From contig JAUSJX010000006.1 of the NCBI GenBank assembly GCA_030647435.1, positions 1 to 64,000 on the forward strand: 64,000 nucleotides of DNA, read 5' to 3'. Source of the DNA: Candidatus Rokuibacteriota bacterium. GTDB lineage: Bacteria > Methylomirabilota > Methylomirabilia > Rokubacteriales > CSP1-6. The translations under genes were made by a program, and so were the position numbers. Shown here one piece after another: positions 16,154 through 21,766 of this stretch (positions within the stretch are counted from its first letter, which is position 1; every line of letters begins with the position of its first letter). Below the pieces are notes generated by a model. The model was not told where the DNA came from. It did not search any database and saw only the letters and a list, made by a program, of their open reading frames with translations.

Positions 16154-16561
16154 GTGGACGCCGAGACCCGCGCTTACCTCGACCAGGCTCTGGGCGGCTT
16201 CCGCGACGATTTGAGCCGCGAGTTCGGGACCCTGCGCCAGGAGTTCGGGACCCTGCGCGGGGAGTTCGGGACCCTGCACGGGGAGTTCGGGACCGTGCGC
16301 GGGGAGTTCGAGGCACTCCGCCAGGAAGTGCGAGACACCGCCGCCGAAACCCGGCGCCATTTCGACGTCGTGGCGGAGCACCTTCGTCACGACATACGCG
16401 GCATTGCGGAGGGTGTGATCGTCCTCTCTGAACGCGTGGATCGCCAGGGTACCGGCCTGCGCACTGAGATGAACGAGCGCTTCGCGGCGACCCATGCCGT
16501 CGTTCGTGTCGCATTCCAGGAAGTCCGGCGGGACATCGAAGGCCTCCGCACAAGTCTGTAG
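16154..16561 (+). CDS. Coiled-coil protein with five exact-length heptad repeats
   Basis: A 135-residue protein, almost entirely charged alpha helix. Residues about 23-57 are five seven-residue units: EFGTLRQ, EFGTLRG, EFGTLHG, EFGTVRG, EFEALRQ. This is a perfect heptad pattern encoded by 21-bp DNA repeats. The rest continues as coiled coil (VRDTAAETRRHFDVVAEHLRHD). No signal peptide or membrane segment is present. It resembles many small bacterial coiled-coil proteins of unknown role; oligomerisation is all that can be inferred. Its TAG stop abuts the stop of the convergent gene at 16562. Confidence 0.7.
   Translation: MDAETRAYLDQALGGFRDDLSREFGTLRQEFGTLRGEFGTLHGEFGTVRGEFEALRQEVRDTAAETRRHFDVVAEHLRHDIRGIAEGVIVLSERVDRQGTGLRTEMNERFAATHAVVRVAFQEVRRDIEGLRTSL
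16220..16324 (+). repeat. Five tandem 21-bp repeats
   Basis: Units starting GAGTTCG recur every 21 bases at 16220, 16241, 16262, 16283 and 16304. Each encodes one heptad of the coiled-coil protein. Unit-length expansion or contraction would keep both frame and heptad register. Confidence 0.9.
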
Positions 16562-19359: not shown

Positions 19360-20999
19360 TGCCCACCGTCGCCGAGATCCTGATCGACGGCCTGCGCCGC
19401 GCCGGAGTCCAGCGCATCTTCGGCGTCCCGGGCGGCGGCTCAAACCTCGAACTGCTCGAGGCCGCGCGTGTGCAGGGCCTGCCCTTCGTCCTCTGCCACC
19501 AGGAGTCCGCCGCGTGCATCATGGCCGCCGTGACGGGCGAGCTCGGCGGCGCTCCGGGCGCGGTGCTGTCAACGTTGGGCCCCGGCGTCAGCGCCAGCGC
19601 GACCGGCCTCGCCCACGCCTTCCTGGATCGGAGCCCGCTGATCTATCTCTCGGACCGCCACCCCGAGGCGACGCTCGGCTTCGCCACGCACCAGGCCTTC
19701 GACCACGCGGCCTTCCTGGCGCTGGTGGTGAAGGGCAGCCTTGCCGTCACGGCGGAGTCGGCCGGCCACTGGGTCGCCCATGCCGCCCAGCTCGCGATGA
19801 AGGAGCCGAGAGGCCCCGTGCATCTGGATCTGCCGGCCGACATAGCGAGCCAGCCCGCCGTGCCGGTCGCGACGACGGCGACGCCCGCGCCGCTGCCACA
19901 GCCGGCCGCCGCCGATCTCGACGGCGCGGTGGCGTTGATCAAGAAGGCCAAGCGGCCCGTGGTCCTGGCGGGGCTTCAGTGCCGCGCCGCCGACGCGAAG
20001 TGGCTGCGCGCCTTTGCCGAAGCGCTGCCCGCGCCCGTCCTGACCACCTACAAGGCCAAGGGCGCGCTGCCCGATCCTCACCCGCTGGCGATGGGCGTGT
20101 TCACGGGCGGCGCGCTCGAGGAGCCCGTGGTCGGTCGCGCCGACCTCATCATCGCCTTCGGCCTCGACACGGTCGAGCTGATCCCGCGCCGCTGGAGCTA
20201 CACCGCGCCCGTGCTGAGTCTGGTGCGGGGGCCGTCCGGAGCGCCTTCGCTCACCGCTGTTGGGGGCGGGGGCTACTTCTCCCCGGCTCTCGAGGTGGTG
20301 GGCGACCTCGGCGTCATCCTCGAGGAGCTGGCGCCGCGGCTCCACCAGCACCACGCCGACTGGGACGTGGTCGAGGTGGACAGGCTGCGCCGCGAGCGAC
20401 AGCGCGCGCTCGAGATCGGCGTGCCGGGGTTGGCGCCGCACCGGGTGGTCCAGATCACCCGCGAGTTGACTCCCGCCGGGACCATCGCGACGGTGGACGC
20501 CGGCGCCCACATGTTCCAGGCCGCCGAGTACTGGCAGGCTGTGGAGCCGGGGGAGTTCCTGATCTCGAACGGGCTCGCGACTATGGGCTTCGCGCTGCCG
20601 GCGGCCATCGCCGCCCAGCTCGCCTTCCCCGAGCAGCGGGTGGTGTGCTTCACGGGCGACGGCGGCTTCATGATGGTCGCGGCGGAGCTCGAGACGGCCG
20701 CGCGACTGCGCCTGCCCATCACCGTCATCGTGTTCAACGACGCGGCGCTGTCGCTCATCGAGATCAAGCAGGAGCAGAAGGGCTACGCGGGCGCGTCCAT
20801 GCGCTACGCGGGGCCCGATCCGGCGCTCCTCGCGCGCTCGTTCGGCGTGACGGCCTGGACCGCGGCGGACGAGGCGGGCTTCGCCGGCGCGCTCGTCGCC
20901 GCGCAGGGTGCGCCGGGGCCGACCCTGATCGACGCCCGCATCGATCCCTCCGGTTACCGCCGCATGCTCGAGATCGTGCGGGGAGCGCCGCGGGCGTGA
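19359..20999 (+). CDS. Thiamine-diphosphate-dependent enzyme, acetolactate-synthase-like
   Basis: A 546-residue three-domain ThDP enzyme. Domain 1 has IFGVPGGGSNLELLEA and the activating glutamate in LCHQESAACIMA. The middle domain spans about 190-320. Domain 3 has the ThDP-binding GDGGFMMVAAELETAARLRLP...FND. It belongs to the acetolactate synthase/benzoylformate decarboxylase/oxalyl-CoA decarboxylase superfamily. The usual FAD-binding features of acetolactate synthase are weak and there is no small regulatory subunit gene, so a catabolic 2-oxoacid decarboxylase or carboligase is likelier. Translation is coupled to the MaoC pair, suggesting a shared acyl-CoA or oxoacid pathway. Confidence 0.85.
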   Translation: MPTVAEILIDGLRRAGVQRIFGVPGGGSNLELLEAARVQGLPFVLCHQESAACIMAAVTGELGGAPGAVLSTLGPGVSASATGLAHAFLDRSPLIYLSDRHPEATLGFATHQAFDHAAFLALVVKGSLAVTAESAGHWVAHAAQLAMKEPRGPVHLDLPADIASQPAVPVATTATPAPLPQPAAADLDGAVALIKKAKRPVVLAGLQCRAADAKWLRAFAEALPAPVLTTYKAKGALPDPHPLAMGVFTGGALEEPVVGRADLIIAFGLDTVELIPRRWSYTAPVLSLVRGPSGAPSLTAVGGGGYFSPALEVVGDLGVILEELAPRLHQHHADWDVVEVDRLRRERQRALEIGVPGLAPHRVVQITRELTPAGTIATVDAGAHMFQAAEYWQAVEPGEFLISNGLATMGFALPAAIAAQLAFPEQRVVCFTGDGGFMMVAAELETAARLRLPITVIVFNDAALSLIEIKQEQKGYAGASMRYAGPDPALLARSFGVTAWTAADEAGFAGALVAAQGAPGPTLIDARIDPSGYRRMLEIVRGAPRA

Positions 21000-21013: not shown

Positions 21014-21667
21014 ATGGGATACCTCACGGCCCAGGACGAGCAGGCGGTCACGCGGGAGTTCGAGAAGCTCACGGGACCGGTGACGCTGACGGTCTTCGCT
21101 TCGGAGCTCGGGCCCGAGAACAACGCCCAGACCGTCTCGCTCATCAAGGAGGTGGCCGCCCTCTCCGAGAAGATCACCGTCAAGCTGATGAATCCCCACA
21201 TCGAGCGGGACGAGGCCCTAGCCTACGGCGTGTCGGTCACGCCTGCGATCGTGGTCGAGGGCGCCAAGGACTACGGCATCCGCTTCCTGGGCACCCCGGC
21301 GGGCTACGAGTTCTCCAACCTGATCGACTCCATCGTCGCCGTCTCCACGGGCGAAGCGCAGCTCAAGGACGAGACGAAGGCGGCCCTGGCCGGGCTGACC
21401 GAAGACGTCACCATCAAGGTCTTCGCCACGCCGACCTGACCGCACTGCCCGCGGGCCGTGCGCCTGGCACAGCACATGTCGATTGCCTCGGAGCACGTCC
21501 GGTCCGAGTGCGTCGAGGCGACGGAGTTCCCCGAGCTGTCGCAGCGCTACCAGGTCATGGCGGTGCCGAAGATCGTGATCAACGACCGCGTCGAGTTCGA
21601 GGGTGCCATCCCGGAGAGCGATTTCGTCAACGCCGTGCTCCAGGCCGTCAGCGCCAAGGAGGTCTAG
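21014..21667 (+). CDS. Protein disulfide oxidoreductase (two thioredoxin folds), probable selenoprotein with UGA at 21437
   Basis: Read through the in-frame TGA at 21437-21439, the frame gives 217 residues, the size of glutaredoxin-like protein disulfide oxidoreductases. Domain 1 (1-120) keeps the fold (TLTVFASELGPENN, GVSVTPAIVVEG with cis-Pro) but lacks a CxxC. Domain 2 starts DVTIKVFATPT, then codon 142 is TGA, then PHCPRAVRLAQ, with cis-Pro in VMAVPKIVIN. Relatives have TPTCPYCP at this place, so TGA replaces exactly the first, nucleophilic cysteine: UPHC. Homology and coding character continue without frameshift to the TAG at 21665. Selenocysteine insertion is the best reading; a TGC-to-TGA sequencing error or an inactive allele is the alternative. 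It would reduce disulfides or peroxides in the cytoplasm. Confidence 0.82.
21437..21469 (+). promoter_or_regulatory. UGA codon with candidate bacterial SECIS hairpin
   Basis: Directly after the UGA, CGCAC (21441-21445) pairs with GTGCG (21458-21462), extended inward by GCC/GGC (21447-21449 with 21454-21456) across one mismatch. An alternative fold pairs TGCC (21446-21449) with GGCA (21466-21469) and CGC (21450-21452) with GCG (21460-21462), leaving a G-rich seven-base apical loop and a small bulge containing U. Bacterial SECIS elements lie just 3' of the UGA and have loose sequence, so either could work. The apical loop is rather close to the UGA, which weakens the case. Confidence 0.45.
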
Positions 21668-21766
21668 GTGGAGTGGGCACCGATCCTCACGGGGGTTGTC
21701 GCGCTTTGCGCCTGGATAGGCCTCGTCCGCTTCGTCCTCCCGCGCTTCGGCATCAAGGTTGGCTGA
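21668..21766 (+). CDS. 32-residue single-helix membrane peptide
   Basis: Beginning with a GTG directly after the TAG of the selenoprotein candidate (no spacer), a 32-residue frame encodes one membrane helix (ILTGVVALCAWIGLVRFVL) followed by the basic tail PRFGIKVG. Direct abutment of stop and start suggests translational coupling. The cysteine inside the helix is notable next to a redox protein. I know no family; it could anchor or recruit the oxidoreductase at the membrane. The short length limits confidence. Confidence 0.5.
   Translation: MEWAPILTGVVALCAWIGLVRFVLPRFGIKVG

Follow-up and report, generated by a model that had tools for sequence, protein, structure and literature searches.

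Organization of the Locus

We analyzed a 64,000-nucleotide stretch of DNA (the window) from a Candidatus Rokuibacteriota bacterium belonging to the order Rokubacteriales (contig JAUSJX010000006.1). It contains a reading frame for a protein disulfide oxidoreductase (PDO) that carries one internal TGA, at codon 142, just as the initial annotation of this DNA had described, and terminates with TAG (Table 1). The frame starts 14 nt past the stop codon of a gene for a TPP enzyme and is followed by a microprotein-sized ORF and by genes for an alpha/beta hydrolase, a GGACT-family protein and a class III aminotransferase, in this order. Judged by its sequence, the ORF directly downstream of the PDO gene possibly encodes a microprotein with one hydrophobic stretch. 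A Pfam search with this ORF gave no match; hydrophobic ORFs of 30-33 residues ending in LPRFG are found 3' of the PDO gene at about ten related loci, and the ORF is broken in the closest relative (G024). Elsewhere in the window, positions 16154-16561 of the forward strand contain a coiled-coil-like ORF in which a sequence is repeated in tandem (EFGTLRGEFGTLHGEFGTVRGEF).

Table 1. Features of the PDO locus (coordinates refer to the window)
Feature	Position	Strand	Remarks
Predicted Sec-containing protein disulfide oxidoreductase (PDO)	21014..21667	+	217 residues, two thioredoxin folds, TAG stop included
Degenerate first active site PENN, residues 34-37	21113..21124	+	CxxC here in two-site PDOs
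In-frame UGA, predicted to be read as selenocysteine	21437..21439	+	Residue 142, first position of U-P-H-C
Predicted SECIS hairpin CGGGC-CGUGC-GCCUG, 5 bp, loop 21457-21461	21452..21466	+	Codons R147-L151, synonymous invariance
cis-Pro position Pro185 in MAVPK, second thioredoxin fold	21566..21568	+	Invariant in alignment
32-codon hydrophobic ORF, C-terminal RFVLPRFGIK	21668..21766	+	Directly after PDO stop
Gamma-glutamyl cyclotransferase-like (GGACT) protein, PF06094	22629..23039	+	Conserved Rokubacteriales neighbor
Class III aminotransferase, PF00202	23060..24415	+	Conserved Rokubacteriales neighbor

The Read-Through Product Is a PDO with a Single UxxC Site

When the internal UGA is read through, the product scores 250 bits against the TIGR02187 profile (cut-off 185), with residues 6-211 aligned to model positions 2-209; the NCBIfam name of this model is PDO_seleno_TRX. 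The product aligns end to end with the Pyrococcus PDO (1a8l), and codon 142 falls on the first Cys of the TPTCPYCP segment. Solved PDOs have the first Cys of their CPYC motif at this residue, Cys occupies the equivalent codon in other phyla, and relatives of the window gene have TGA there; the view that UGA replaces the first Cys of a CxxC motif was thus borne out by the alignment. The AlphaFold model of the protein (mean pLDDT 93.3) retrieved PDOs first in a Foldseek search of the PDB (2ayt and 1a8l, TM 0.93, with 38% identity to 1a8l), and the next-best matches were N-terminal domains of AhpF (TM 0.81-0.88; 0.83-0.88 for 5h29 and 1zyn).

The first thioredoxin fold of the window PDO reads ELGPENN (residues 31-37) and is devoid of a CxxC motif, and we therefore classify the protein as a one-site and not as a classical two-site PDO. 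The first-fold CxxC is absent from every Rokubacteriales copy that we read; many copies in the order keep the second Cys of this site (SETC, DLC), and both Cys residues are lost in the genus of the window. These findings agree with the initial proposals of a first domain that no longer possesses a CxxC and of the UPHC motif, which we located in the second fold, as the sole redox center. The strand VMAVPKIVIN, described as the cis-Pro strand, is present as well, and from what is known of the thioredoxin fold we take its Pro185 to be in the cis configuration. Conservation in the PDO alignment is particularly high in the segment that follows the UGA, in which the resolving Cys is located.

A Predicted SECIS Hairpin Follows the UGA Codon

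In bacterial SECIS elements, the distance between the UGA and the loop is 16-37 nt (PMC10778597) and the loop contains an invariant G (PMC4607533). The hairpin of the window gene starts 12 nt after the UGA and places its loop, CGUGC, 17 nt after it, so that it possesses both of these published characteristics. In a comparison of 29 members of the order, we considered the 58 columns in which a conserved residue has four- or six-fold degenerate codons. All 29 use a single codon in six of these columns, namely T141, which precedes the UGA, and R147 to L151. The hypergeometric chance that all five columns from R147 to L151 are found among the six invariant ones is about 1.3e-6, a value for a block that had already been noticed when this test was applied to it. 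Most relatives possess one extra base pair on the stem, and a further member of the order (L083) carries two synonymous changes, both of them in the loop, with the stem kept.

Across 19 Sec genes, including those from Bacillota, 87% of the alignment cells in the stem pair, compared to at most 51% when the partner strand is slid, and one stem pair changes from G-C to U-A in three sequences; the stem recurs with this compensatory change in Bacillota Sec homologues. The covariation score of the hairpin in these 19 genes was attained by 7 of 500 shuffles; since part of these sequences had served to define the structure, we regard the covariation as support and not as proof. The hairpin sits at the expected place downstream of the UGA, where folding of the RNA had been suggested previously, but 39 nt of the window sequence folded alone by energy preferred other hairpins, and the 5-bp stem was best only in a short fragment. 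Likewise, single sequences did not stand out when hairpin energies were compared with those of synonymous shuffles. Single-sequence energies gave no clear signal; the case for a SECIS element comes from its conservation and from base pairing that is maintained in different lineages.

The Genome Encodes the Selenocysteine Pathway

The initial annotation had called for a genome search for selA, selB, selD and tRNA-Sec, and all four were found in the window genome (98% complete). The selA, selB and tRNA-Sec genes lie together on one contig (C56), and selD, which itself has one in-frame TGA, is located on another (C98). Searches of the window itself with Rfam (gathering thresholds) and ARAGORN gave no match; the tRNA-Sec gene is on another contig. 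Since the upstream TPP-enzyme gene terminates with TGA (positions 20997-20999), this codon is not generally reassigned in the genome.

Analysis of a sequence cannot show which residue is inserted at a UGA, and this codon could in principle be read as an ordinary amino acid such as Trp, or the 141-residue truncated product could be functional. Both options are extremely improbable in view of the use of UGA as a stop just upstream, the alignment of codon 142 with a catalytic Cys, the presence of the Sec pathway and of the SECIS hairpin, and the high conservation of the post-UGA part with its resolving Cys. Decoding of UGA142 as Sec is instead very likely: the mRNA hairpin would recruit SelB with Sec-tRNA-Sec to the codon.

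At least five further redox genes of the window genome are interrupted by UGA (L101/L226, L102, L103, L104, L105); among them are peroxiredoxin-like genes with TPGU and PTU motifs and a TlpA-like gene with the motif WATWUPTC. Four of these genes (L102 to L105) possess a strong hairpin 10-13 nt after the UGA; AGGAA is an example of the loops. We predict from these genes a sizeable selenoproteome.

Conservation of the UGA Codon in the Order Rokubacteriales

A match to the PDO was present in 51 of the 60 genomes of the order inspected, and 50 of these 51 have a single in-frame TGA. It is placed at the equivalent of codon 142 in the more than 30 order loci that we read, with the exception of a single AGA codon. 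No Cys form of the PDO was found among the 51 genomes with a match. A nonsense mutation, a dead gene or a sequencing error hiding a TGC or TGT codon would also interrupt the PDO frame with a TGA, and the AGA codon demonstrates that a single-base change or error does occur at this position. Against such an origin stand the occurrence of the TGA in all but one of the genomes with a match, the strong conservation of the protein after it, the nearby block of invariant synonymous sites and the lack of a Cys codon in the order, and we consider it to have almost no likelihood. Specifically, a chance TGA is excluded because the downstream protein is conserved in 51 genomes of the order and a 15-nt block is frozen at its synonymous sites, and a base-call error is implausible because dozens of independently assembled genomes have the same TGA. 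Unrelated sequence after the TGA, which would have spoken against the initial annotation, was not observed; relatives in the order keep both the TGA and the downstream protein. The assignment of the window PDO as a selenoprotein of the TIGR02187 family, with a predicted recoding event, is therefore well supported.

The AGA (Arg) codon is found in a genome from the genus of the window (G023; locus L026, contig G023:C122). Since the hairpin block is intact and a UGA is retained in a peroxiredoxin gene of this genome, the AGA is likelier to stem from a point change of recent date or from an error in the assembly than from a loss of Sec use; selA was not found in this 78% complete genome. Two genomes without the PDO (G021, G053) did not yield a tRNA-Sec over the cut-off either, and two others (G006, G044) possess tRNA-Sec and lack the PDO. 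A Sec PDO of the Rokubacterial type was also detected on a contig filed under Elusimicrobia GWA2_69_24 (L108; MGTY01000078.1), and this copy groups inside the Rokubacteriales. There was no match to selA in the GWA2_69_24 genome, and the contig is likely to be mislabelled or misbinned.

Sec and Cys Forms outside the Order

Outside the order, most PDO copies recovered in our scan of GTDB genomes were Cys forms with two CxxC sites, in a search with two patterns, one of which included Cys codons and thereby biased the result against Sec forms. Sec and Cys PDOs both occur in the Bacillota sample, and the Sec forms are found with or without the first CxxC. A PDO from a genome of the same class but outside the order (G077) combines CPTC with UPYC; since it groups elsewhere in the tree, it seems to have a different history from the Rokubacteriales copies. 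In a quick tree, the Rokubacteriales PDOs, all of which are one-site proteins, form one supported clade; a minimum of six changes of state is needed for the C-terminal position, and five for the N-terminal site.

Our set of contigs had suggested that Sec always accompanies the loss of the first CxxC. We rejected this idea, since G077 and copies from Bacillota (L194, L197-L200, L202, L204, L207, L209, L210) have Sec together with an intact CxxC, and the association of the two traits on the tree draws on only two independent pairs on well-supported branches. In a Cys-form PDO from Bacillota (L193, genome G168), a SECIS-like element (CGGGC-GGUGC-GCCUG) still follows the Cys codon, perhaps as the trace of a recent change from Sec to Cys.

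Gene Neighborhood and Proposed Function

The GGACT and class III aminotransferase genes follow the PDO gene at all 15 Rokubacteriales comparison loci. Both are absent from the stretch that was read around a Sec PDO gene of the same class outside the order (L095). In seven genomes (G032, G033, G036, G045, G047, G059 and that of L114), a gene for a peroxiredoxin with a TPGU or SPGU motif lies directly 3' of the PDO gene; loci with adjoining Sec PDO and Sec peroxiredoxin genes are L033, L045, L050, L057, L063, L099 and L114. The microprotein ORF is situated between the two genes in G045 and G047. In the window, no such peroxiredoxin gene adjoins the PDO gene. As judged by eye, the adjoining Sec peroxiredoxins carry an apparent export signal and the PDO does not; the two proteins of these relatives may therefore not meet.

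In Sulfolobus, electrons pass from NADPH via the thioredoxin reductase Tr and the PDO to Bcp1, Bcp3 and Bcp4; the C-terminal site of SsPDO is decisive for thiol transfer, and its isomerase activity needs both sites (PMC7465337). Since the first site has been lost in the window PDO, we favor a function as a reductase. The loss of one site should abolish isomerase and retain thiol-transferase activity, which makes a role as general cytosolic disulfide oxidant or isomerase quite improbable, even though the window PDO shares its family and fold with the two-site PDOs of thermophiles that would serve as its model.

We propose that U142-P-H-C145 in the second fold would be the only redox center, and that the first fold would have become a scaffold or a domain for docking, a situation known from the N-terminal domain of AhpF. 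The protein would act as a cytosolic reductase that passes electrons from NADPH and thioredoxin reductase to peroxiredoxins, including Sec-containing ones, and to other disulfides. A thioredoxin reductase over the cut-off and UGA-containing peroxiredoxin-like genes are present in the window genome. By analogy with Sulfolobus, we regard this particular electron route as about an even bet. To the explanation as a whole, i.e., Sec at residue 142 inserted via SelB and the hairpin, a single UPHC center, and a role as peroxiredoxin reductase, we assign a probability of roughly 0.85.

The GGACT and aminotransferase neighbors do not point to peroxide defense. Their presence at 15 loci is more constant than that of the peroxiredoxin gene (seven genomes), and the PDO could instead be a glutaredoxin-like Sec reductase that functions with these two proteins in the metabolism of gamma-glutamyl compounds or low-molecular-weight thiols. 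However, this synteny may merely reflect short evolutionary distance, the neighbors are missing at L095, and the PDOs that have been characterised receive their electrons from thioredoxin reductase (PMC7278568), and we thus view such a role as unlikely. Within the reading as a peroxiredoxin reductase, a tentative extension, which we consider less likely than not, is that the Rokubacteriales PDO might be a one-site Sec reductase dedicated to Sec peroxiredoxins, operating in a Sec-to-Sec relay with the first fold for docking and sometimes encoded adjacently to its partner.

Comparison with Known Systems

Rokubacteria are uncultured bacteria of soil and groundwater. The window PDO points to active use of Sec in this group, and an annotation that ends at the UGA would miss the redox center together with the entire half in which it lies. 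The Cys two-site, Sec two-site and Sec one-site forms provide a natural series of PDOs in which the effect of Sec can be tested.

The proposal of a Sec form of a two-fold PDO was supported by all checks that were run, and it needs to be corrected in two respects. The family itself is not new, since it has already been published as a selenoprotein family, known since 2006 (PMC13188914; PMC9312934; PMC1794560, tables; PMC11227280), and the NCBIfam model is called PDO_seleno_TRX. In addition, the occurrence of Sec does not depend on the loss of the first CxxC, as the Bacillota copies and G077 demonstrate. The descriptions of the family in the available parts of these four articles do not name Rokubacteriales, and we found no selenoprotein study of Rokubacteria in the open literature. 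What may therefore be new is the fixation of the Sec form in this order, its one-site architecture there and, in seven relatives, the location of a Sec peroxiredoxin gene beside that of the PDO. The window PDO resembles the published Sec family, which includes members from Asgard Sifarchaeia, in its score over the curated TIGR02187 cut-off and in its UxxC motif; here, the Sec form is fixed across an order, and its first fold is devoid of a CxxC.

With the two-site PDOs of Pyrococcus (1a8l), Aquifex (2ayt) and Sulfolobus (SsPDO), the window protein shares the two thioredoxin folds and the place of the C-terminal site. In contrast to them, it is predicted to carry Sec where their second site has Cys, it lacks the first CxxC, and its host does not belong to the groups of hyperthermophiles from which PDOs were originally reported. 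AhpF has one functional center, located in the second fold of its N-terminal domain. The window PDO is similar in fold to this domain, but it scores only 78.8 bits with the AhpF model TIGR03140 (cut-off 502.9), and it is a stand-alone protein that ends at residue 217, lacks a flavoprotein domain and is predicted to use Sec in place of Cys.
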